Virus record (IMG/VR): IMGVR_UViG_3300009161_000047
Span: 1-63,449 of that record
Length of the DNA stretch: 63,449 bases
Source: a virus
Reading direction: 5' to 3' (one strand)
In this document: one piece after another, positions 38,652 to 59,867 of the stretch
Numbering within the stretch: the first letter of the stretch is position 1
Layout of the letters: every line of letters begins with the position of its first letter
The notes under the pieces: model-generated
Database searches by the model: none
What the model saw: the letters and a program-made list of their open reading frames with translations, nothing else
Told to the model about the DNA's origin: nothing
Made by a program: the position numbers and the translations under genes

Positions 38652-38813
38652 ATGAATTACTATATGAGTAATTTTACTATGGCGCAGTTCTATCACTACT
38701 CTCTTTCTGAACTAGACGATATGTATCCTTGGGAAAGAGAAGTTTATATGACTTTGTTGAACAAACATATCGAAGAAGAGAACGAACGAAGAAAGAATGC
38801 CAAAAACAAATAA
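38652..38813 (+). CDS. Small tail/hub assembly protein (chaperone-like)
   Basis: 53 aa: begins MNYYMSNF and contains 'QFYHYSLSELDDMYPWEREVY' followed by a charged helix 'IEEENERRKNAK'. The motif 'M-x-x-x-H-x-x-x-x-x-x-x-x-x-YPWE-x-x-x-x-x-L' is typical of the second part of phage tail assembly chaperones just upstream of tape-measure genes. Function is inferred from motif and position. It overlaps the tape-measure-like start by 17 nt (ATG 38797, stop 38813), which indicates coupling. Confidence 0.75.
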   Translation: MNYYMSNFTMAQFYHYSLSELDDMYPWEREVYMTLLNKHIEEENERRKNAKNK

Positions 38814-41800
38814 AAGTTTAGCTAAATTAATAGATATTGTAAATAAGAATTCGTCTTCCAATTTGAAGAATGTTGAATCTATTTCTAACGATATATCTTC
38901 CCTCAAAGATCTTCTGATCGAAGATCGAGCTCTTAATGCAAAATTAAGAAAACAGAGATCGTCAGAAAATAAAAACGCCAAGATATTATCAGATGATTTA
39001 GATGAAATTCGTTCTAAGAGAAACAAAATCGATTCTGAAATTGCATCTCTTCTGAACGAAGAAAAGACACTACAAAAAAATCAACAAAAAGCAGACAAGA
39101 AAAAAGAAGATGAAGATTCAACATATTACAGTAAACTTGGAGATAAGGAACTACAATCCGGAAATCTAGTTAGTGGATTGTTATTTTCGTTTCTGGGAAG
39201 AAATGAGAAAAATCAAGAAGAAATAGAAAAAGAGAATAAACAAGCCGATAGTGATGAGAGACGGAAGAGATTAGATTATCTAGAGAATGAGAAGAATGAT
39301 AATGCAAAAGAAAGACAATCTCGAGTTAATGAATTTAAGAAGCAGACAAAAACCAAATCTCCTGTTAATACAACCGTAGCAACACCAGAAAAAACCAAAG
39401 TAACTCCAGATCCTGGTGTAGTAGATCAAAAATATTCGCAAAGAGATGCGGAGATCATATCTCCATCACCAATTGTAATACAAAATATCATAGATCCTGT
39501 AACTGTTGAAATTTCAAAAATAAGCGAAAAATGTTTATCTGATTTAGCAAAAGTGTTCGCTTCTTCTGGGGGATCTGGCTCTGGATCTGGTTTTGATATT
39601 CCGGACTTTGACATGCCTGATCGGCGAGGTAAACCCAACACAGGCCGGGGTCGAGGCCGAGGTCCAAGCCGAGGTCCAAGCCGAGGTCCAAGCCGAGGTC
39701 CAACAGGACGTCTCGGTGTACCCAGGGTCGGTGGTTCTCCAGGATTTTTTGCAAAAGGTCTTGGATATCTATCCAAAATTCCTGGAGTTACCAGGTTGGC
39801 GGGGATTTTGCCTGGCTTGGCAGGTGCTGGTGCAGCTGGCGCTGGTGTGGCGGGTGCTGGTGCGGCTGGTGCGGCGAAGTTGGGGGCGGGAGGAGCCCTC
39901 AAAGTTGGTGCGAGACTATTAGGAAAAGCCGCCCTGCCACTGACAATTGCTATGGCTGCTTTTAATGGCTATCAAGGTGCCACTGACGAAGGTGTCAATA
40001 GTACATTATCATCAAGAGAGGGAAGAGAAAACGAACCAATTACTGCAACAGAGAGACTGAGATCTGGGAGATCAAGTATACTTTCTGGATTAACAGGTGG
40101 GCTTATCCCAGCGAAAGCTATTGCTGATGCATTCGAATCGCCACTCGGTCAATTAGTAGAAATATTTGATCCATTCACATTACTTGCTAAGGGTTTAGAA
40201 AAAATGTTACCTGGTTTGGATAAGTTGAAAGACTTGGCCAAAAATGTCGGAGGAGTGATTAGTGATGGATTTAAGGGTGCAGCGAAATTCTTTGGATTTA
40301 CAGGAAACGAAACAGTTAATCCAGTAGATCCACTAGTGATGACTGCAGAAAAACAGAAAAATGCTGATCTGTTGACAGAACAGATGAAGAAAAGAGGATT
40401 TAACGATAAACAAATAGCTGCTGGTCTAGGAGTTACAGCTAAAGAATCCGGTCTGGTATCTAAGAGTGAAAACTTAGATTATGCTAACACAGATAACACA
40501 CGTATAAGACAACTCTTTGGAAACCGAGTCGCTGGAAAAACTGATGAAGAATTAAATACCATCAAGAAAGATCCCGAGAAGATGGGCGAGACGATGTATG
40601 GTAAAGATACTGATATTGGCAAAGGGATGGGCAACACCGAGGTCGGCGATGGATGGAAATATCGAGGCCGTGGATTTATTCAATTAACTGGTAAGACCAA
40701 TTATGCTGCTGCCAGCAAGGCAATATTTGGCGACGATACATTGGTCCAAAATCCTGACCGAGCCAACGAACCGGCAATTGCGGCTGAGATTTCTGCATGG
40801 TATCTTGATAAACGTGGTAAAGACATGGCTGGCAAGATGGGAGTGGATCTGGCTGCAGCTTCTCAGGAAGATGTTAACAGAGTCATGGTCAGTGCAGTTG
40901 CAGGCTCTGAGGTGAAAGCAGGACAAGGAATCACAGGAACAGAAGGTTTAGCTAAAACTGATGCATATGCGAAACAGTTTGGTGGAGATACTGTAAATCG
41001 TTTCGGGGCTGCGGGAGCAGCGAAACCCTCAATGGCGGCAAAAGCACCATTCGGTGCTGGAGGAGATTCGGGTGGAGGTGGTGCTTCGGATAGTTTCGGT
41101 GAACAAGCTGGAGGAAATTATAATGCAAAACAACTATCTGACAGTGGATTGAAATTAAGAGGATATGGAGATGTTCAGGCTGCTGGTGCGTATTTAGATG
41201 AAAATTTAGTAAATCTATCGAAACAATTACCAAGTATTGTTGATGCGGAAAAAATCGCTGGTAAACCTGGAGAAGATCCTCTTGAATTTGTAAACATTAG
41301 TGGTCTCAATGATGCATATCATAAAACATTACCATACAAATCGCAACACACAGAAGGCAAAGCAGTTGATTTCACATTAAATAGAAGACCGACTAAAGAA
41401 GAAGGGGAAAAGTTGGTGGCCCTTCTAAAGAAAAAAGGATTCAGTAAAGTAATAGATGAATATAATTATCCTTCTGGGGCAGCAACAGGTAACGGACACA
41501 TTCATGCTGAAGTAGCTGGTACTTCTTCTGATAAGTCATCTGCACCATCAGCAGTTGCTCCTGCGGGTGCACCACCAACTCCGGGTGCACCGGAGATGGT
41601 TGGAAAAGCACCATTCGGTGCTGGAGGAGATTCGGGTGGAGGTGGTGCGTCAGATAGTTGGGGTGAACCTGCGGGAACTGTTACACCAGCAACTAAAGAA
41701 ACTGCTGTCGGGGCGGTGGCTACAGTGGCACCATCATTAATGGCATATCAAGAGCAGACACCGATTGCGCCGACAGTTGCCAAGACGACAGTGCCTACTG

Positions 41801-42027
41801 AAGTCGCGATGCCTAACGACACCGGTGTAAAACAATTTGTCGCATCAAAACAAGAAAAGGTCGGCGCAGAAGAAGCCGGGAGTGCCGCTGGACCAACTGT
41901 TATCAATGCCCCACAAAATAGTACGGTGAATAATTCTCAAGCTGCTTCTAATAAGAATGTTAGAGAAAAACCAGCATGCCCATCCAATACATTTGCAAAC
42001 ATTTACAATAAACTAGTTTGGGTTTAG
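38797..42027 (+). CDS. Tape-measure-like hub protein with GH19 muramidase and M15-type peptidase
   Basis: 1076 aa. The N-terminal ~180 residues are coiled coil. A Gly-Arg repeat linker (about 285-305) and a hydrophobic Gly/Ala segment (about 325-400) follow, typical of tape measures. Residues ~525-720 form a GH19 chitinase/lysozyme domain (E550 in 'GVTAKESG', then 'WKYRGRGFIQLTGKTNY'). Residues ~770-905 form a D-Ala-D-Ala-peptidase-like domain with the zinc motif S-x-H-x-x-G-x-A-x-D (H851, D858) and 'GHIHAEV' (H901, H903). The two enzymes would open the peptidoglycan during injection, replacing the missing gp5 lysozyme. Two identical 45-bp repeats flank the peptidase domain. It converges with the glycosyltransferase gene, overlapping by 4 nt. 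Confidence 0.88.
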   Translation: MPKTNKSLAKLIDIVNKNSSSNLKNVESISNDISSLKDLLIEDRALNAKLRKQRSSENKNAKILSDDLDEIRSKRNKIDSEIASLLNEEKTLQKNQQKADKKKEDEDSTYYSKLGDKELQSGNLVSGLLFSFLGRNEKNQEEIEKENKQADSDERRKRLDYLENEKNDNAKERQSRVNEFKKQTKTKSPVNTTVATPEKTKVTPDPGVVDQKYSQRDAEIISPSPIVIQNIIDPVTVEISKISEKCLSDLAKVFASSGGSGSGSGFDIPDFDMPDRRGKPNTGRGRGRGPSRGPSRGPSRGPTGRLGVPRVGGSPGFFAKGLGYLSKIPGVTRLAGILPGLAGAGAAGAGVAGAGAAGAAKLGAGGALKVGARLLGKAALPLTIAMAAFNGYQGATDEGVNSTLSSREGRENEPITATERLRSGRSSILSGLTGGLIPAKAIADAFESPLGQLVEIFDPFTLLAKGLEKMLPGLDKLKDLAKNVGGVISDGFKGAAKFFGFTGNETVNPVDPLVMTAEKQKNADLLTEQMKKRGFNDKQIAAGLGVTAKESGLVSKSENLDYANTDNTRIRQLFGNRVAGKTDEELNTIKKDPEKMGETMYGKDTDIGKGMGNTEVGDGWKYRGRGFIQLTGKTNYAAASKAIFGDDTLVQNPDRANEPAIAAEISAWYLDKRGKDMAGKMGVDLAAASQEDVNRVMVSAVAGSEVKAGQGITGTEGLAKTDAYAKQFGGDTVNRFGAAGAAKPSMAAKAPFGAGGDSGGGGASDSFGEQAGGNYNAKQLSDSGLKLRGYGDVQAAGAYLDENLVNLSKQLPSIVDAEKIAGKPGEDPLEFVNISGLNDAYHKTLPYKSQHTEGKAVDFTLNRRPTKEEGEKLVALLKKKGFSKVIDEYNYPSGAATGNGHIHAEVAGTSSDKSSAPSAVAPAGAPPTPGAPEMVGKAPFGAGGDSGGGGASDSWGEPAGTVTPATKETAVGAVATVAPSLMAYQEQTPIAPTVAKTTVPTEVAMPNDTGVKQFVASKQEKVGAEEAGSAAGPTVINAPQNSTVNNSQAASNKNVREKPACPSNTFANIYNKLVWV
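41040..41084. repeat. 45-bp direct repeat, copy 1 (left of peptidase domain)
   Basis: Identical over 45 bp to 41604-41648 and 564 bp (188 codons) apart, in the same reading frame. It encodes a Gly-rich linker 'KAPFGAGGDSGGGGA'. Confidence 0.9.
41604..41648. repeat. 45-bp direct repeat, copy 2 (right of peptidase domain)
   Basis: Second identical copy of the Gly-rich linker DNA. Recombination between the copies would remove the M15-type domain in frame. Confidence 0.9.
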
Positions 42028-43364
42028 AAGAAAGCGTCTAATGTTGCTTTAGGTATAAGGCGATCGATGAAACCGAAATGTCCGCACCAAATGTCATCGA
42101 TCGTCTCTTTAACTTTTGTATTTGTAAGTGAGTCAAAATCTTGATTGGGTGCAGCCACAAGGGATAAGTATGCCTTTGCTACCTCAGTTCTCGAGAATAA
42201 AGTGTCAACTAGTGTGTAATTTGTTTCGACAATCTTCATGTAATCTTTCTCAGACATCTTCATAAAGCCTTTGATATATTCTGCAAAAGACCTTGGTGTT
42301 GCGTCATAAGGTATCATAAGATAATTTTCATTTGGGCGAATAATATCAGAGATCCCTTCTAAATTATCAGAAACACCTAAATTTCTTGCAATAGGAACAA
42401 CACCAACACGCATTGCATCTACAATTACTCTATTGAAATGTGATCCATATGTTCTAGACCATGACGTATCTATTAGAAATTTAGATTCAGAAAGAATAGA
42501 ATCTCGGGTCTCTTCAGAAATGAAACCTTTATATTCCATTCCATTATCTAGAGCATTATCCCAAATCCTATTACCCATCCATTCTGGTTTAGCATCTGGA
42601 TCACGATCCGGTGTACAAAAATACTCTTCCTTACATTTATCCTTTGAAGTCATGTATGCACGTTCAATACCATCACCTGCAATAATTACTTTCGCATATG
42701 AAGACATATGCGGAATAGCTGCAACTAAATCGTCAACTCTTTTCCATCGTTTAAAAGTTTGAAGTGATAGAAGCTGATTCTTTCTTGAAGAGAATGATAC
42801 ACCAGTTCTTTCGATGCTCTTCTGTGGATTAACAATCAGAGCTCTTGGAATTTCCATATTTTTAGCAGAGAGAAATGCGCTAGGGTGCACACAAGCTAAT
42901 CCTGAAATATGATCTTTTAATTTAAAAATCCAGGGATAATATTTAAGGAGATTACCGTCATGCACAATCACGATTTGTTTCACTCTAGTATCCAAATTTG
43001 TGATCATCTTAACCCATTCGGTCTCGCCGATTGTTTCTTCACATTTAAAACCAAAAATAGATTCCCAAATAACTAGATCACAGGTATTTGCTTCTTTCAC
43101 GAAGGAATCGATATATTCAGAAGAAAGAAATGGGGCATAAGGAACACCCCATCCGGATCCTTGATGGATAGGAAAACCAGATCCTTCTCCTGTTGTGTAA
43201 TCACTCAGATCTTTTGTACGTTTACCAGGAGCTGTCTTCGACGCCTTAACACAAACAAGACTAACTTCATGGCCCAGATCTTTGAATCCGGCCATGAGCT
43301 GTTCTGTGTGATTGACGATCCCACCATAATTATTGAAGTCATGAACGACACATAGGATTTTCAT
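42024..43364 (-). CDS. GT-B (GT4-like) glycosyltransferase, probable DNA-base glycosylation
   Basis: 446 aa. The N-terminal Rossmann half starts 'MKILCVVHDFNNYGGIVNHTEQLMAGFKDLGHEV', the GT4 acceptor-domain pattern. The C-terminal half has 'LLSLQTFKRWKRVDDLVAAI' and a donor-site region 'GSHFNRVIVDAMRVGVVPIARNLGVSDNLEG', where the usual E-x7-E second acid is Asp. It follows the dioxygenase gene by 8 nt and shares its early promoter, so the likely substrate is the hydroxylated base made by that enzyme (glucosylated hydroxymethyl-pyrimidine). This is inference; a capsule- or protein-directed transferase is the alternative. Confidence 0.82.
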   Translation of the reverse strand: MKILCVVHDFNNYGGIVNHTEQLMAGFKDLGHEVSLVCVKASKTAPGKRTKDLSDYTTGEGSGFPIHQGSGWGVPYAPFLSSEYIDSFVKEANTCDLVIWESIFGFKCEETIGETEWVKMITNLDTRVKQIVIVHDGNLLKYYPWIFKLKDHISGLACVHPSAFLSAKNMEIPRALIVNPQKSIERTGVSFSSRKNQLLSLQTFKRWKRVDDLVAAIPHMSSYAKVIIAGDGIERAYMTSKDKCKEEYFCTPDRDPDAKPEWMGNRIWDNALDNGMEYKGFISEETRDSILSESKFLIDTSWSRTYGSHFNRVIVDAMRVGVVPIARNLGVSDNLEGISDIIRPNENYLMIPYDATPRSFAEYIKGFMKMSEKDYMKIVETNYTLVDTLFSRTEVAKAYLSLVAAPNQDFDSLTNTKVKETIDDIWCGHFGFIDRLIPKATLDAFF

Positions 43365-43372
43365 AATAGTCC

Positions 43373-44683
43373 TTAAATATCCAGAACTGCGGTCTTATTA
43401 CCATAAATTGTATCTTCAATTTCAGCAGCATATTCGTGTAATCCGTTATCTACCAGATACTTGTACCAATTTTCACTTTCCCACATGCCTGCAGAAACAC
43501 CGTTCCATCGATCATACCATAATGGATGGTTTTTATTTGTCCGACGATATTCGACGAAATTAAATCTAGTGTCTTCATAAAGCTTAGATCTACAATCTAA
43601 CATCTTTTCACGCATATAACAAACAATTGAGATTCGTTCATGTAAACCAGATTCAGAAGAGATAGGTGTATTCCCATGAATCGAATGAATATCCATTGCT
43701 AAGAAATCACCAGGCTTTACAGAGATAGCGATGCGATACTCCGGGAAGATTAGATAACATCCATCCCAATCCACACCATTATAGGTTGTTGATAAGTTTC
43801 CGAATCCACCTCGAAAATCTCCCGCATCCCTATGCGCAGCAGTACGATAATTCTTATTAACAGTTACTGTGGTGTAATTTGAATTACCAATTCTGAATGC
43901 TGGATCAATATGATCCATAGCAGCTTTCTGAACTTCATATCTGCCAGGAACCAACTCTTTGAATTGTTCTGATACAGCTTCAATGAAGGGAATAGCTTTT
44001 TCAAATTTGTCTTTATTATTGGCAGTGTAAGAAGTTAATCTACAGTACGGAATACGTGGATATTTGTCGAAAGAACCAGCAATCCCAGAAAGAACTGGAT
44101 TAGCATAAGAAGTATCTGAGATCCAATCATTAATAATTTCTACCTCTTTGATCCGTTCTTCGTATGAGAGTTTAGTAGTCTTCTGTACCCATGAATCGAA
44201 GTCGAAATCGGCAGGTCGTTTAAGTGTTAACCAGACCCTTCCTCTGGCAGAAACTTCTTCTGGATTCTTTTTAGATTTCGTGTAAGCTGTTTCGATAGGA
44301 TCTTCAGAAGTAACTGTATTCATTGACCCAGAAAGAACATCAATCAAAGATTCTTGAAGAGTGGTCACCCAATCTCTTCCTGTAGAGCGATCTGTTCTTG
44401 GTCCTGCGGCAAGACCACGATTTTGTGATTCACCAGCTGCTTCTTTTAATCCTTCATAAGCCATCCGAACTAGTTCTGGGGAAAATACAGCCTTCCTGAA
44501 TTTAAGAAGTAAATTGTGTTCTCCGTTTGTGACGGGATTACCTTCAGAATCGATCAGTTTATCTAATGGCTTATACACATCACATTCTTCTGTGATCACA
44601 TAATCGTAATGACTCTCATCAAGGAACTGACCCAACAGATTCTCACACGGATATTTTTTCTCTAAATATTTAATGTCAATCAT
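43373..44683 (-). CDS. TET/JBP-type 2-oxoglutarate/Fe(II) dioxygenase (putative DNA base hydroxylase)
   Basis: 436 aa. The C-terminal half (about 205-365) is a double-stranded beta-helix dioxygenase. 'NYRTAAHRDAGDF' gives the iron ligands H284 and D286, 'GDFLAMDIHSIHGNTP' the distal H336, and 'HERISIVCYMR' the 2-oxoglutarate Arg (R350). The order 'HRDAGDF ... FGNL ... G-x-YLIFPEY-x-IAISVKPGDFL' is that of phage TET/JBP proteins that hydroxylate thymine or 5-methylcytosine in DNA. The N-terminal ~200 residues are not assigned. It is expressed from an early promoter (44698-44726) with a leader containing GAGG, and is followed by a glycosyltransferase. Confidence 0.82.
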   Translation of the reverse strand: MIDIKYLEKKYPCENLLGQFLDESHYDYVITEECDVYKPLDKLIDSEGNPVTNGEHNLLLKFRKAVFSPELVRMAYEGLKEAAGESQNRGLAAGPRTDRSTGRDWVTTLQESLIDVLSGSMNTVTSEDPIETAYTKSKKNPEEVSARGRVWLTLKRPADFDFDSWVQKTTKLSYEERIKEVEIINDWISDTSYANPVLSGIAGSFDKYPRIPYCRLTSYTANNKDKFEKAIPFIEAVSEQFKELVPGRYEVQKAAMDHIDPAFRIGNSNYTTVTVNKNYRTAAHRDAGDFRGGFGNLSTTYNGVDWDGCYLIFPEYRIAISVKPGDFLAMDIHSIHGNTPISSESGLHERISIVCYMREKMLDCRSKLYEDTRFNFVEYRRTNKNHPLWYDRWNGVSAGMWESENWYKYLVDNGLHEYAAEIEDTIYGNKTAVLDI

Positions 44684-44697
44684 TATGCCTCAATTAT

Positions 44698-44726
44698 ATT
44701 ATACCTTAAAAATGTTTGTGTGGCAA
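44698..44726 (-). promoter_or_regulatory. Early sigma70-type promoter for dioxygenase-glycosyltransferase operon
   Basis: On -, TTGCCA (44721-44726), 17-bp spacer, TATAAT (44698-44703). It is followed by a ~10-nt leader with a GAGG site before ATG 44683. Confidence 0.8.
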
Positions 44727-44771
44727 GCTTAAACTCACCACACATACAGTTATTTAGATTCCGAAAATACA

Positions 44772-45284
44772 TCAATCAATTTCTGGAATTTCCCAGTCGC
44801 CGGATTCAGTTTTGCATTTAGTGATTTTCGCTTTCTTTTCTTCGCCATCAATAGTCACTTTAATATCAAAATCTTTGCATTGAATCTTCTGATCTTTCTG
44901 ATCTTGATACACAATCACTTTATCTTTATTCTTAGTAGATCTGCCAATCGCGAATCCTAAAATACCAACTCCTAAACCAATAGCAGTCGCAGCACCAGTA
45001 GAAATTCCTCGTCCTGAACGATTGTAGTTATTGTAAACAGGATATCTGTTATAATTGTTATACACAGGATATCTGTTATAATTGTTATACACAGGATATC
45101 TGTTATAATTGGGACGATTATTATAATGTTGAGTTGGATACCTGTCTCTACTTGGACGATTGTATTGAGTGGGATACCTGTGTTGATGATTATTATTATT
45201 TGAAGGAAATCTGCGCCAGCCTTCTGCGAAAAGATTACACGCAAATACCAACAGTAAACTACAACTTAGAAGCTTCTTGAACAT
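44772..45284 (-). CDS. Exported protein with NYNRYPVYN repeats and glycine-zipper segment
   Basis: 170 aa. A signal peptide (MFKKLLSCSLLLVFACNLFA, probable cleavage after LFA) is followed by an Asn/Tyr/Arg/Pro-rich region with three 9-residue NRYPVYNNY-type repeats. Next comes a small-residue membrane-like segment 'GAATAIGLGVGILGFAIG', then a basic/acidic C-terminal domain. It is an envelope protein of the infected cell and could act in superinfection exclusion or lysis timing; neither is proven. It overlaps the upstream WYL_2-like gene by 26 nt and therefore belongs to the early operon starting at 46097. Confidence 0.7.
   Translation of the reverse strand: MFKKLLSCSLLLVFACNLFAEGWRRFPSNNNNHQHRYPTQYNRPSRDRYPTQHYNNRPNYNRYPVYNNYNRYPVYNNYNRYPVYNNYNRSGRGISTGAATAIGLGVGILGFAIGRSTKNKDKVIVYQDQKDQKIQCKDFDIKVTIDGEEKKAKITKCKTESGDWEIPEID
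45039..45110. repeat. 27-bp tandem repeat (about 2.7 copies) in the exported-protein gene
   Basis: Unit starting AGGATATCTGTTATAATT at 45039, 45066 and 45093. Each unit encodes nine residues, so expansion keeps the frame. Confidence 0.8.
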
Positions 45285-46191: not shown

Positions 46192-47211
46192 CTAGAAAAC
46201 AGGAATCGTAGTGAAATAAGATTTCTCTTTATTGAATTTCAATCCAAATCCAGTTAATGATGGTCTTGTAGTTTTTACCCTAACAGAACCAATTTTCGAT
46301 TTTGTTTGTGGGAACATTATATCTAATGTTAATGAAGTTTGGCCTTTCGCAGGAATAGATAATTTATCCACATGAATCTGACTACCAAAATTATCATAGA
46401 ATGTGAACGCTACTTCTTGTGGATAATTCAAATAATTAACTAGAGCAAGACCTGTTGAATATGGACCAGAATTATCGAATGGCAGCACAAACTCGTCCTT
46501 ATTGGGAATAGAGCTTGAGATAGTCGCTTCGAATAAATTGTTAGAGTATGTTGATTGTGCAACAACACCCGAACCATATACAGTCTTAATCTCCAGTGAA
46601 CCAGTTTTCAAAGAATTCGGGTCAGACATAACCACATCAGTAGATCCATTTCCAGGAAGTCCTACAGAATATTCTGTCATATAATTACCATTAACAAAGA
46701 ATGGATTATTCGTTCCTGAAGGATCATAAAACTTCAGAGTGACGAGACTCAACCAATTAGATGTGTTAGTTAATTTAACTGTTGTCGTCCAACCACCACC
46801 TGATGCAATATGCGGAATAGTTGGATCTGTTGAAGTGGTGAATGTTCTAGAATCAATTACTGTTAAATTAATCCCAAAAGAAACAGAATAAGCCGGTTGA
46901 AATGTTTGAGTAAATGTCACCGGAATATTATAATTTCCAACAGTTAAACTGTTTCTCACAATAGACATTCTAATAGCCTGGGTTGTTCCAGGTGGAAGAT
47001 ATCCTTGTACTGGCCAAATCAAAACCATCTGTTGATTCGATGGAATCACCGTGTTAAATGCGAATGAAGTCGAATTCGACGACAATGTCACGTCAGGAAC
47101 AGCAACAATTGTGTCCGTTGCTAAATCGAAAGTCACATTCACGCTTGAAGGTGACAAACTGGGCTGTGCAAACAACCCGATACTAAACAAACTCAGTAAA
47201 ACTAATTTCAT
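46192..47211 (-). CDS. Secreted protein with bacterial-type beta-sandwich domains
   Basis: 339 aa. A signal peptide (MKLVLLSLFSIGLFA) is followed by two Ig/BACON-like beta domains. 'SLSPSSVNVTFDLATDTI' with 'LPPGTTQAIRMSIVRNSLTVGNYNIPVTFT' and then 'IPHIASGGGWTTTVKLTNTSNWLSLVTLKFYDPSG' are of a style I know from many secreted proteins of Acidobacteria (Solibacter-like). The gene has a strong AAGGAG ribosome site and its own terminator, unlike the neighbouring leaderless genes, which fits recent acquisition from a host. Possible roles are surface masking or exclusion. No enzymatic motif is seen. Confidence 0.75.
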   Translation of the reverse strand: MKLVLLSLFSIGLFAQPSLSPSSVNVTFDLATDTIVAVPDVTLSSNSTSFAFNTVIPSNQQMVLIWPVQGYLPPGTTQAIRMSIVRNSLTVGNYNIPVTFTQTFQPAYSVSFGINLTVIDSRTFTTSTDPTIPHIASGGGWTTTVKLTNTSNWLSLVTLKFYDPSGTNNPFFVNGNYMTEYSVGLPGNGSTDVVMSDPNSLKTGSLEIKTVYGSGVVAQSTYSNNLFEATISSSIPNKDEFVLPFDNSGPYSTGLALVNYLNYPQEVAFTFYDNFGSQIHVDKLSIPAKGQTSLTLDIMFPQTKSKIGSVRVKTTRPSLTGFGLKFNKEKSYFTTIPVF

Positions 47212-47235: not shown

Positions 47236-47763
47236 CTAAACTCCCCATAAATTATCTAAATCTTCTTTTTCTATTAGATCACCATTGGGGATTTCGTCAC
47301 CATAAATTATATATGAGACTTTAGATTGTCTGAACATTTCTATTGTTCTTTTTTCGTGCTCATAATATATTGAGGTCTCACGTCTGAATGCGCCCAAATT
47401 CTTGGGCGACACAATAACATTAGTTATTCCAGATTGAATGATCCCTCTGGCACAATCTACACAAGGAAAATGAGAAACATACATTGTACAACCAGATATA
47501 CATGTACCCATTCTTGCGGCATTGTAGATAGCATTTCTTTCTGCATGTTCTGCCCAATAATATTTTTCTGGTCTTTCCCATTTGTGAGGATCTGATTCGT
47601 CGACTCCTCTAGGAAAACCATTAAATCCTGTAGATCTAATTTCGTGTTCTTTCCCAACAATTATTGCCGAAGTCTTCGTCTTATCTTTCGATTTAATTGC
47701 AATAACATCAAGTAGCTCTACAAAATATTTGTCCCAGGGCATAATACGCAAATCAATTCCCAT
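47236..47763 (-). CDS. cd: Deoxycytidylate (dCMP) deaminase
   Basis: 175 aa. Converts dCMP to dUMP for thymidylate synthesis. The zinc/catalytic motifs H-A-E ('YWAEHAERNAI') and PCVDC ('SHFPCVDCARGII') are intact. 'TSAIIVGKEHEIRSTGFNGFPRG' is the dCMP-deaminase type substrate loop. The start may be the ATG at 47763 or the one at 47742 (MPWDKYF), which matches the usual family start. The gene is cotranscribed with the receiver-like gene upstream (22-nt gap). It could feed the dTMP pool if thymine is the base later modified. Confidence 0.92.
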   Translation of the reverse strand: MGIDLRIMPWDKYFVELLDVIAIKSKDKTKTSAIIVGKEHEIRSTGFNGFPRGVDESDPHKWERPEKYYWAEHAERNAIYNAARMGTCISGCTMYVSHFPCVDCARGIIQSGITNVIVSPKNLGAFRRETSIYYEHEKRTIEMFRQSKVSYIIYGDEIPNGDLIEKEDLDNLWGV

Positions 47764-50654: not shown

Positions 50655-51032
50655 TTAATTAATAATTTCGTTCCCAGAGACCCGAGCGTACCCATAGACC
50701 TCTGCGTTCCCAGAGACCCGAGCGTACCCAGAGACCTCGGCGTCCCCAGCGACCACTGCGTCCCCAGCGACCACTGCGTTCCCATAGATCCAGGCGTTCC
50801 CAGAGACCATTGCGTTCCCAGAGACCATTGCGTTCCCATAGACCTCTGCGTTCCCAGAGACCTCTGCGTTCTCAGAGACCACAGCGTTCTCAGAGACCAC
50901 TGCTTCAGGACCAACGTAGGCAGTCTCAGCGACACTAGCAGTATTCTCGACCCAGCCTCCTCCATTAGAATGAGGGTGCCACGTCTCAAGAGTAGCGTCA
51001 GGAAAAGCAGATTTTAAATCTTCAAATGTCAT
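50655..51032 (-). CDS. Hexapeptide-repeat (left-handed beta-helix) early protein A
   Basis: 125 aa. A conserved N-terminal module 'MTFEDLKSAFPDATLETWHP' with 'GGGWVENTASVAETAYVG' precedes about 14 hexapeptide turns of the V-S/Y-G-N-A-x type ('VSGNAEVYGNAMVSGNA'). This should fold as a left-handed beta-helix. Acyltransferases of this fold have extra catalytic loops, which are absent, so a structural or binding role is likelier. Two paralogues occur at 53363-53848 and 54430-54864. All are early and near-leaderless. Confidence 0.82.
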   Translation of the reverse strand: MTFEDLKSAFPDATLETWHPHSNGGGWVENTASVAETAYVGPEAVVSENAVVSENAEVSGNAEVYGNAMVSGNAMVSGNAWIYGNAVVAGDAVVAGDAEVSGYARVSGNAEVYGYARVSGNEIIN

Positions 51033-53362: not shown

Positions 53363-53848
53363 TCAACCGATAATTTCGTCCCCAAAGACCCGAGCTTTCC
53401 CAGAGATCGTTGCGTTCCCAGAGACCACTGCGTCCCCATAGACCACTGCGTCCCCATAGACCTCAGCGTCCCCATAGACCACTGCGTCCCCATAGACCTG
53501 AGCGTACCCAGAGACCTGAGCGTTCCCAGAGACCATTACGTTCCCAGAGACCTGAGCGTCCCCATAGACCTCAGCGTTCCCAGAGACCACTGCGTTCCCA
53601 GAGACCCGAGATCTCCCATAGACCACTGCGTTCCCAGAGACCACTGCGTTCCCAGAGACCCGAGAGTTCCCAGAGACCATTGCGTTCTCAAAGACCCGAG
53701 CGTACCCGAAGACCAATGCGTCAGGACCAACGTAGGCAGTCTCAGCGACGGTAGCAGTATTCTCGACCCAGCCTTCTCCGTTAGGATGGACGTGCCAAGT
53801 GTCTAGGGTAGCGTCAGGAAAATCGGATTTTAAATCTTCGAACTTCAT
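53363..53848 (-). CDS. Hexapeptide-repeat early protein B
   Basis: 161 aa from MKFEDLKSDFPDATLDTW. Same N-terminal module as protein A, with ~20 hexapeptide turns ('VSGNAVVYGRSRVSGNA') and the same capping end 'VFGDEIIG'. It is longer than A by about six turns, so turn number varies between paralogues. The in-frame extension to 53896 lies upstream of the promoter and is not used. No signal peptide. Confidence 0.82.
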   Translation of the reverse strand: MKFEDLKSDFPDATLDTWHVHPNGEGWVENTATVAETAYVGPDALVFGYARVFENAMVSGNSRVSGNAVVSGNAVVYGRSRVSGNAVVSGNAEVYGDAQVSGNVMVSGNAQVSGYAQVYGDAVVYGDAEVYGDAVVYGDAVVSGNATISGKARVFGDEIIG

Positions 53849-53856
53849 ATAGAACC

Positions 53857-53885
53857 AGTATACCTTATTGGAACACACAAAGCAA
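53857..53885 (-). promoter_or_regulatory. Early promoter for hexapeptide protein B
   Basis: On -, TTGCTT (53880-53885), 17-bp spacer, TATACT (53857-53862), then GGTTCTAT and ATG 53848. The 55-bp repeat copy 2 starts 14 bp upstream. Confidence 0.82.
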
Positions 53886-53899
53886 GGAATTTTCAAACT

Positions 53900-54429: not shown

Positions 54430-54864
54430 ATGACATTCAATGAGTTAAAAACGGCTTTTCCTGGCGCCACCACTGAGCGATGGAGAAAACACTCCTTAGG
54501 AGGAGGCTGGGTCGAGATTACTGCCCGTGTCGCTGAGTCTGCCTATGTTGGTCGTGATGCTATTGTATCTGGGAACGCTCGGGTCACTGCGAACGCAACG
54601 ATCTCTGGGAACGCTCGGGTCTCTGGGAAAGCTTGGGTCGCTGGTAACAGTGCGGTCTCTGGTAACGCAGAGGTCTATGGCAACGCCCAGGTCTTTGGGA
54701 CCGCAGTGGTCTCCGGAGACGCTGAGGTCTATGGGGACGCTCAGGTATTTGAGACCGCTCAGGTCGGTGAGGACGCTCGGGTCTTCGGTTATTCCCAGGT
54801 TTCTGGGAGATCTCTGGTCTTTGGAGACACGGTAGTCTGGAACGAAATTATTATTAATCGTTGA
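54430..54864 (+). CDS. Hexapeptide-repeat early protein C
   Basis: 144 aa. N-terminal module 'MTFNELKTAFPGATTERW' with 'GGGWVEITARVAESAYVG' as in A and B, then ~17 hexapeptide turns that are more diverged ('VTANATISGNARVSGKAWVAG') and the end 'VVWNEIIINR'. It is on the opposite strand to A and B, about 0.6 kb from B across a repeat-rich intergenic region, so an inverted duplication is likely. Function unknown. Confidence 0.82.
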   Translation: MTFNELKTAFPGATTERWRKHSLGGGWVEITARVAESAYVGRDAIVSGNARVTANATISGNARVSGKAWVAGNSAVSGNAEVYGNAQVFGTAVVSGDAEVYGDAQVFETAQVGEDARVFGYSQVSGRSLVFGDTVVWNEIIINR

Positions 54865-58458: not shown

Positions 58459-59049
58459 ATGTCTGAATTTTATGTCTATGCATATTTGCGAGAAGATGGC
58501 TCCCCATATTATATCGGGAAAGGACGAGGTAACAGAGCCTGGAGGAAGTCGGGAAGACAAGTTCCTCCACCTACAGATTCTTCTAGAATAGTTATTGTCA
58601 AAGAGACACTTACAGAAACAGAAGCCTTCTCTGAAGAAATGCGACTCATCCAATTGCACGGTCGAAAAGATAATGGAACAGGAATTCTGAGAAATCTGAC
58701 AGATGGTGGAGAAGGAACTTCTGGATGCAAACGTTCTCAAGAAACCAGAGACAAACAATCTGTAGCTATGTCTGGTGAAAATAATCCTATGTTCGGAAAG
58801 TTTGGAGAAAATCATCCTAATTATGGAAGGACTGGTATAAGTCATCCTATGTTTGGACAGCACCACACTCCAGAAGCCAGAGACAAAATGTCTGCAGCTG
58901 CGTCTGGTGAAAATAATCCTATGTTTGGAAGGACAGGTGAAAACAGTCCCAGGTTTAGACAGAAACTATCTCCAGATTCAATAGCCAAAATGATTGCAAC
59001 CATGAAGAGAAATAAAGAAGCTAAGGATCTCACACAGCATCATTTATAA
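58459..59049 (+). CDS. GIY-YIG homing endonuclease with NUMOD3 repeats (copy 1)
   Basis: 196 aa. The N-terminal GIY-YIG domain is '[19 protein letters not shown]' with catalytic R ('RGNRAW') and E ('[13 protein letters not shown]'). It is followed by DNA-binding NUMOD3 motifs ('[10 protein letters not shown]', 'GENHPNYGR', '[10 protein letters not shown]') and a basic end. It is a free-standing Seg-like gene between uvsY and uvsW. Its stop codon overlaps the late promoter of the uvsW remnant (59045-59052). Confidence 0.9.
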
Positions 59050-59267: not shown

Positions 59268-59867
59268 ATGTCTAAAACTATTTATACAAAAGATCCGAAC
59301 AGATTCTATGTCTATGCTTTTCTAAGAGAAGATGGTTCCCCTTATTATATCGGAAAAGGTACGGGTGCCAGAGCCTGGATCAAGAGACGAAGGTCTTCTC
59401 CACCTGCTGACGTGTCTAGAATATCTATTCTCTTTGAAAATCTGACAGAAACAGAAGCCTTCGATGAAGAAATGAGACTAATAAATTTCTATGGTAGAAA
59501 AGACCTAGGAACAGGAATCCTGAGAAATCTGACAGATGGCGGAGAAGGAGCTTCTGGCTGCATACGATCTCAAGACGCTCGAGACAAAATGTCTGAAGCA
59601 CAGTCTGGAGAAAATCATCCTATGTTTGGAAAGCGCCATACTCAAGACGCCAGAGACAAAATGTCTGCAGCACTGTCTGGAGAAAATCATCCTATGTTTG
59701 GAAAGCGCCATACTCAAGACGCCAGAGACAAAATGTCTGCATCACGGTCTGGAGAAAAGAATCCTATGTATGGAAAGCGTCGATCTCCAGAAACACTAGC
59801 CAAAATGCGTGAAACCATCAAGAGAAATAAAGAAGCTAGGATTCTCAACGAATTAGAAGTTTTATAA
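59268..59867 (+). CDS. GIY-YIG homing endonuclease with NUMOD3 repeats (copy 2)
   Basis: 199 aa. A paralogue of copy 1 ('[25 protein letters not shown]', 'TETEAFDEEMRLI') with more regular NUMOD3 units. A 72-bp unit encoding SGENHPMFGKRHTQDARDKM plus four residues is tandemly repeated (about 59607-59750). It sits directly before the intact uvsW with the same 8-nt gap as copy 1 has to the remnant. The two genes therefore share one duplicated insertion site. Confidence 0.9.
   Translation: MSKTIYTKDPNRFYVYAFLREDGSPYYIGKGTGARAWIKRRRSSPPADVSRISILFENLTETEAFDEEMRLINFYGRKDLGTGILRNLTDGGEGASGCIRSQDARDKMSEAQSGENHPMFGKRHTQDARDKMSAALSGENHPMFGKRHTQDARDKMSASRSGEKNPMYGKRRSPETLAKMRETIKRNKEARILNELEVL

Follow-up and report, generated by a model that had tools for sequence, protein, structure and literature searches.

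Does a freshwater T4-like phage oxidise thymine within its own DNA and then attach a sugar to the oxidised base? The question is raised by two adjacent genes in virus record IMGVR_UViG_3300009161_000047, a 63,449-base stretch (hereafter the window), which encode a TET/JBP-family dioxygenase (TET) and a GT4-type glycosyltransferase (GT). The window carries genes for clamp loader subunits, RegA, UvsY, a UvsW-type helicase, a gp59-type helicase loader, a gp33-type late regulator and an ATP-dependent ligase, and by this T4-like content it is a fragment of a T4-like myovirus. An earlier note, made from the sequence alone, had proposed a two-step DNA hypermodification cassette. This proved the best-supported reading, given family membership, an intact dioxygenase site, gene linkage and cassette exchange, with the chemistry being predicted. 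We consider it probable that TET oxidises thymine in DNA to 5-hydroxymethyluracil (5hmU) and that the GT4 enzyme glycosylates it, as a predicted post-replicative hypermodification cassette.

A TET/JBP dioxygenase and a GT4-type glycosyltransferase in one operon

The two genes lie on the same strand with the GT gene downstream.

43373..44683, minus strand: TET/JBP-family 2-oxoglutarate/Fe(II) dioxygenase, 436 amino acids, ATG start (PF12851, phrog_24024, fold matches)
42024..43364, minus strand: GT-B fold, GT4-type glycosyltransferase, 446 amino acids, ATG start (PF00534, PF13692, GT-B model)

Searching Pfam with the dioxygenase returned PF12851 (Tet_JBP) over residues 207-359, with an E value of 1.8e-24 and 86.3 bits against a curated cut-off of 34.9, and no other family reached an E value of 1. 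The catalytic domain occupies about residues 200-365. Its H284-x-D286...H336...R350 site was intact in a 436-residue protein at exactly the coordinates given earlier, and all four residues were invariant in 101 of 101 non-redundant TET relatives. The best solved-structure match of the TET family profile was human TET2 (E = 1e-4); a single-sequence search against solved structures gave nothing useful. With an AlphaFold model of TET (predicted local distance difference test score, pLDDT, 75.5), the first 21 fold matches in the PDB were CcTet, NgTet1 and TET2, most of them DNA complexes, followed by FTO; the overall template modelling scores of 0.27-0.44 by query length were low, and the matches rest mainly on the catalytic domain.

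The N-terminal ~200 residues, to which the earlier note could assign no domain, had no Pfam match in our search either and no confident partial fold match. This conserved extension (about residues 1-195) lies within phrog_24024, which covers residues 8-413 (E = 4.9e-138); because that family spans the whole protein, the extension is a family feature and not an isolated fusion.

A small-molecule or protein hydroxylase identity, which the earlier note had held up as the finding that would overturn its proposal, was ruled out, since profile, sequence and fold comparisons all put TET first, with Pfam yielding only Tet_JBP and the best solved-structure match being TET2.

Full-length relatives were found in phages DLP6 (46% identity to the window TET), C48C1, Cr30 and S-CBWM1. 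The TETs of DLP6, Cr30 and S-CBWM1, but not that of C48C1, are annotated as 'SNF2 DNA repair protein'; the window protein showed no match to SNF2, and the label appears to be a mis-annotation. In the viral collection at least 585 stretches encode a related TET, marking a common freshwater phage lineage.

The GT gene follows TET after 8 nucleotides (nt), and its stop codon has a 4-nt overlap with a convergent gene (38797-42027). Both the spacing and the GT4-like assignment of the earlier note were borne out, with matches above the cut-offs to PF00534 (E = 7.7e-9, 35.7 bits against 26.4) and PF13692 (E = 1.5e-7). The model, of moderate confidence (pLDDT 71), has a GT-B fold, with BshA as its best fold match (E = 5.5e-14) and PimA also matching. 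The model also matched several entries of T4 alpha-glucosyltransferase at E = 1.7e-10 to 1.2e-9, among them structures in complex with hydroxymethyluracil DNA. Across 71 distinct homologues G14, G15, H19, H135, D136, K205, K208, E234, H309, N311 and R312 were invariant. An EX7E-type motif reads E308...D316 in 66 of the 71, and S308...D316 in the window's sub-clade. A tblastn search of phage records with GT found none, and a scan of genome contigs for a cellular origin found no relative at the sensitivity of that scan.

We also considered whether GT could be a TET-associated glycosyltransferase (TAGT, PF20691). TAGT has a GT-A fold (PMC13216743), and with a GT-B model and no PF20691 match for the window GT this identity was ruled out.

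A promoter and a hairpin precede the operon.

44698..44726, minus strand: sigma-70-type early promoter TTGCCA-17-TATAAT upstream of TET, 11/12 consensus positions, conserved in relatives
44717..44744, minus strand: hairpin TGTGTGGTGAGTTTAAGCTTGCCACACA, overlapping the -35 element; a similar hairpin lies 5' of TET in L010, L015 and L019

The promoter had been described as perfect; it is present and conserved in relatives, at one position short of perfection, and ends ~15 nt before the TET start. Promoter-like sites in this AT-rich region numbered 26, against 27 expected from shuffles. Directly 5' of TET, TTGACA/TTGACT/TTGCCA-17-TATAAT recurs in L010, L015, L019, L065, L067 and L142. Its conservation extends to relatives of only about 60% identity (L065, L067, L142), with TTGACA as the -35 element in L065 and L067. 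This conservation supports a putative early TET operon read by sigma-70, and the hairpin is a possible terminator of the upstream gene.

In the proposed pathway, the TET/JBP enzyme would use Fe(II) and 2-oxoglutarate to oxidise thymine in phage DNA at its 5-methyl group, giving 5hmU. The GT4-type GT-B enzyme, for which DNA would be the acceptor, would then transfer a sugar from a nucleotide-sugar to the hydroxyl of 5hmU. The product would be a base-J-like glycosylated thymine that may protect the genome by blocking host nucleases.

TET is linked to GT4 or to alternative tailoring cassettes

To evaluate the linkage, loci were gathered from viral contigs by searches seeded with GT alone. TET was adjacent in 112 of 120 loci, six were cut off upstream and two (L200 and L201) had no nearby TET; once 95%-identical copies were removed, TET stood beside GT in 51/53. 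The adjacency was strict across lineages and held whichever gene came first, as TET-GT or as GT-TET (e.g. L132), some loci having one or two genes inserted between the pair.

Among the 101 non-redundant TET loci, GT4 was present in 54 and genes of a GATase/GNAT/ADDT/kinase set (ADDT, amino acid:DNA transferase) in 37; seven carried TAGT only, one (Cr30) both ADDT and TAGT, and two none of these. No locus held both GT4 and the ADDT set (0/101). On the TET tree, which was built by a short-search method and has some long branches, GT4 required 20 changes, at least 13 of them forced by well-supported (starred) branches. One cassette switch was seen at TET identities of at least 95% (L135/L191). 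Beside TETs 82% identical to that of the window, L010-L013 carry a 254-residue protein and TAGT, and L014-L018 carry GATase_6, an acetyltransferase, ADDT and a P-loop kinase, some cut short; GT4 reappears beside TETs of 73-74% identity (L019-L022). The assignments were made with PF18724 for ADDT (E = 2e-19 in L015, 8e-20 in L099, 5e-35 in L074), PF18751 for the kinase (7e-13 in L130) and PF20691 for TAGT (9e-7 in L010, 3e-18 in L067, 4e-10 in S-CBWM1); an ADDT search against the PDB gave no match. In many relatives the cassette lies near uvsX and a DnaB-like helicase, within the replication cluster.

Exclusive exchange at one site is what would be expected if all cassettes act on a single TET product. 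The exchange inclines us, with less assurance than for the two-step pathway itself, to a picture in which 5hmU made in situ by TET is the hub of a widespread T4-like lineage, the GT4 (base J-like), ADDT/kinase amino-acid and TAGT cassettes being exchanged around it and GT4 being a separate recruitment.

Several of these loci hold further genes of possible relevance to the tailoring group. In the cultured Caulobacter phage Cr30 (L004), TET and ADDT (E = 2.4e-54) occur with a TAGT-like gene, their annotations reading SNF2 repair or hypothetical. An inositol-1-phosphate synthase gene lies beside the ADDT-type cassettes of L074 (8976-10199) and Cr30 (L004:14293-15474), possibly indicating an inositol-derived group. 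Phage C48C1 encodes a UDP-galactopyranose mutase (PF03275, L003:11351-12358) two genes past TET, which suggests a galactofuranose donor for the DNA sugar of that lineage. A cytidylyltransferase-like gene inside or beside the TET-GT cassette of L028 (5574-5996, PF01467) and L132 (2803-3234) may hint at a nucleotide-activated, CDP-type donor.

Thymine is the likely substrate

To determine which base is the likelier substrate, we searched for C5-cytosine methyltransferases (PF00145) and found none in the window, in agreement with the earlier note. PF00145 was also missing from 29/30 records with TET, including the genomes of DLP6, C48C1, Cr30 and S-CBWM1 and contigs of 146.6, 165.6, 169.5, 173.0 and 197.4 kb. 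The sole positive was Melnitz, whose TET belongs to a distant clade without the long extension and has an HhaI-like methylase gene directly upstream. PF00303, the family of thymidylate synthase, dCMP/dUMP hydroxymethylase and dCMP methylase (the makers of hydroxymethyl-dCMP, 5-methyl-dCMP or hydroxymethyl-dUMP), was not found in the window or the TET records examined except for one thymidylate synthase in Cr30. With no phage source of 5-methylcytosine (5mC), thymine, the only plentiful 5-methylpyrimidine in DNA, is the likely substrate, a prediction that leans on the relatives, the window being a fragment. The earlier note had slightly favoured a thymine route, and the comparative data favour it more than slightly.

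Oxidation of 5mC to 5-hydroxymethylcytosine (5hmC) in phage DNA, followed by glycosylation of 5hmC, is an unlikely alternative. Phages that pair a TET/JBP enzyme with a C5-methyltransferase do exist, Melnitz among them, and T4 alpha-glucosyltransferase, to which the GT model matches, has 5hmC as its natural substrate; set against this, neither PF00145 nor PF00303 was found in the window or in large relatives of this TET clade, and GT is repeatedly replaced by ADDT, which we assign to thymine hypermodification chemistry on its Pfam name and on background knowledge. In characterised thymine-hypermodifying phages, a DNA kinase specific for 5-hydroxymethyldeoxyuridine (5hmdU) phosphorylates that nucleoside in DNA, after which transferases alter it (PMC6449724). 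A kinase alone is no proof of a thymine route, because Melnitz has a cytosine methyltransferase along with a weak kinase match. Stenotrophomonas phage DLP6 has TET and no C5-methyltransferase, and a review table gives its DNA as restriction-enzyme resistant (PMC8228603), which fits base modification without naming which.

DNA is the predicted acceptor of the glycosyltransferase

That GT targets the cell envelope, the capsid or a lipid, with TET an incidental neighbour, is quite improbable: glycans or small glycosides are common products of GT4 enzymes, BshA heads the fold matches, and no TET lies near the gene in L200 and L201, but the linkage in 51/53 loci over lineages and in both gene orders, together with the 0/101 co-occurrence with the alternative tailoring set, argues against it. 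In L200 (2951-4330) and L201 (5001-6338) the GT4 family member directly follows the major capsid gene; TET is perhaps elsewhere in those genomes, or GT has a second use. Least probable of all is an action of TET on RNA, such as a 5-methylpyrimidine of tRNA or mRNA, with the neighbours modifying RNA too, for although TET-family enzymes can act on RNA and several of the host phages have many tRNA genes, the partners belong to DNA-tailoring families (ADDT, TAGT), the cassette often lies near uvsX and the DnaB-like helicase, and restriction-resistant DNA is recorded for DLP6.

Some observations weigh against oxidation of thymine followed by glycosylation in DNA. Being a 63-kb fragment, the window leaves room for a methyltransferase elsewhere in the same genome, and the Melnitz phages combine TET, a weak kinase match and a cytosine methyltransferase. 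DLP6 carries a TAGT near TET instead of a window-type GT. Ser308 replaces the first Glu of the EX7E-type motif, a caveat for the activity of the window phage's predicted enzyme. Confidence in the GT model is only moderate, and BshA, which it matches best in fold, uses a small-molecule acceptor. Finally, the GT genes of L200 and L201 stand beside a capsid gene with no TET nearby.

Neighbouring genes in the window

A nucleotide-metabolism gene lies upstream of the operon.

47236..47763, minus strand: dCMP deaminase, 175 amino acids (PF00383, E = 1.9e-19; phrog_174, E = 3.5e-36)

The earlier note had this enzyme possibly feeding the dTMP pool. Its identity stood, and the gene is also 5' of TET in L010-L020. 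It could supply dUMP/dTTP; its tie to the cassette is weak, and it carries little weight for a thymine route, as T4-like phages commonly have it.

Several other genes were of interest in their own right. The 339-residue product of 46192-47211 (minus strand) has an apparent signal peptide (MKLVLLSLFSIGLFAQPS) and looks beta-rich, Ig-like and secreted, which is unusual for a phage; 44772-45284 (minus) encodes a signal peptide and several near-identical NRYPVYNNY repeats. Neither has a PHROG match. A paralogous-looking trio with a similar N-terminal motif comprises 50655-51032 (minus), 53363-53896 (minus) and 54430-54864 (plus); the third matches phrog_7964/5070, and two of the trio flank a 739-residue gene whose PHROG family is named peptidase. 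The tandem paralogues 58459-59049 and 59268-59867 (plus) share a GIY-YIG-like motif, FYVYA(Y/F), and are probable homing-type endonucleases.

Comparison with known systems and implications

The cassette resembles the kinetoplastid base J pathway (JBP1/JBP2 and the J-associated glucosyltransferase) in having a TET/JBP dioxygenase followed by a glycosyltransferase and in the inferred route from thymine through 5hmU to glycosyl-hmU in DNA. It differs in its GT4-type GT-B enzyme, in a TET extension with no assigned domain and in being a phage operon, probably for genome protection. Hypermodification of 5mC has been reported from viromes. The phage systems that pair TET with TAGT or with a C5-methyltransferase (P12024L, Melnitz) share the TET/JBP core and linked glycosyltransferases, whereas the window has no C5-methyltransferase, its GT is not a TAGT, and their TETs, of 288-345 residues, lack the ~200-residue extension.

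In phages M6, ViI, phiW-14 and SP10, which use a hydroxymethyl-dUMP synthase, 5hmdU DNA kinase and amino-acid or alkylamine transferases, 5hmU is likewise tailored after replication, and ADDT/kinase genes stand in for GT in the window's close relatives. There, however, a thymidylate-synthase homologue makes 5hmU in the nucleotide pool, whereas the window phage would make it with TET in DNA and has no detected PF00303. More widely, a thymidylate-synthase-superfamily hydroxymethylase of the nucleotide-pool pathways (SPO1, phiW-14, T4) was found in neither the window fragment nor its relatives, apart from the PF00303 match in Cr30. With the T-even phages, which glucosylate hydroxymethylcytosine (alpha-GT, beta-GT, TAGT), the window shares a T4-like background and a predicted GT-B DNA glycosyltransferase; unlike them it has no dCMP hydroxymethylase, and its GT is GT4-like by sequence, outside the alpha-GT and beta-GT families.

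Phage cassettes of TET and a glycosyltransferase have been predicted before, and the arrangement is therefore not a new kind. Iyer 2013, Burke 2021 and Lee 2022 are said to have dealt with phage TET and thymidine pathways. New, as far as checked, are a GT4-type transferase as the major TET partner and its mutual exclusion with ADDT cassettes, along with the case they make for thymine being oxidised in situ in T4-like phages. Two glycosyltransferase recruitments have been described (PMC13216743); GT4 would be one more case in which a cellular glycosyltransferase fold was recruited to act on phage DNA, apart from the alpha/beta-GT and TAGT lines.

According to a 2019 paper, base J-like DNA had not been reported from any phage; the cassette predicts such DNA in a phage lineage common in freshwater. 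A further prediction is that 5hmU has a second origin in thymine-hypermodifying phages, by oxidation in DNA as opposed to a modified nucleotide pool. Because the cassettes are exchanged, cultured phages could serve to test the prediction with no need of the window's host: Cr30, which has ADDT and is a ready model for in-situ thymine oxidation, and DLP6, which has TAGT. If true, these phages would be a source of new DNA glycosyltransferases and thymine-oxidising enzymes.

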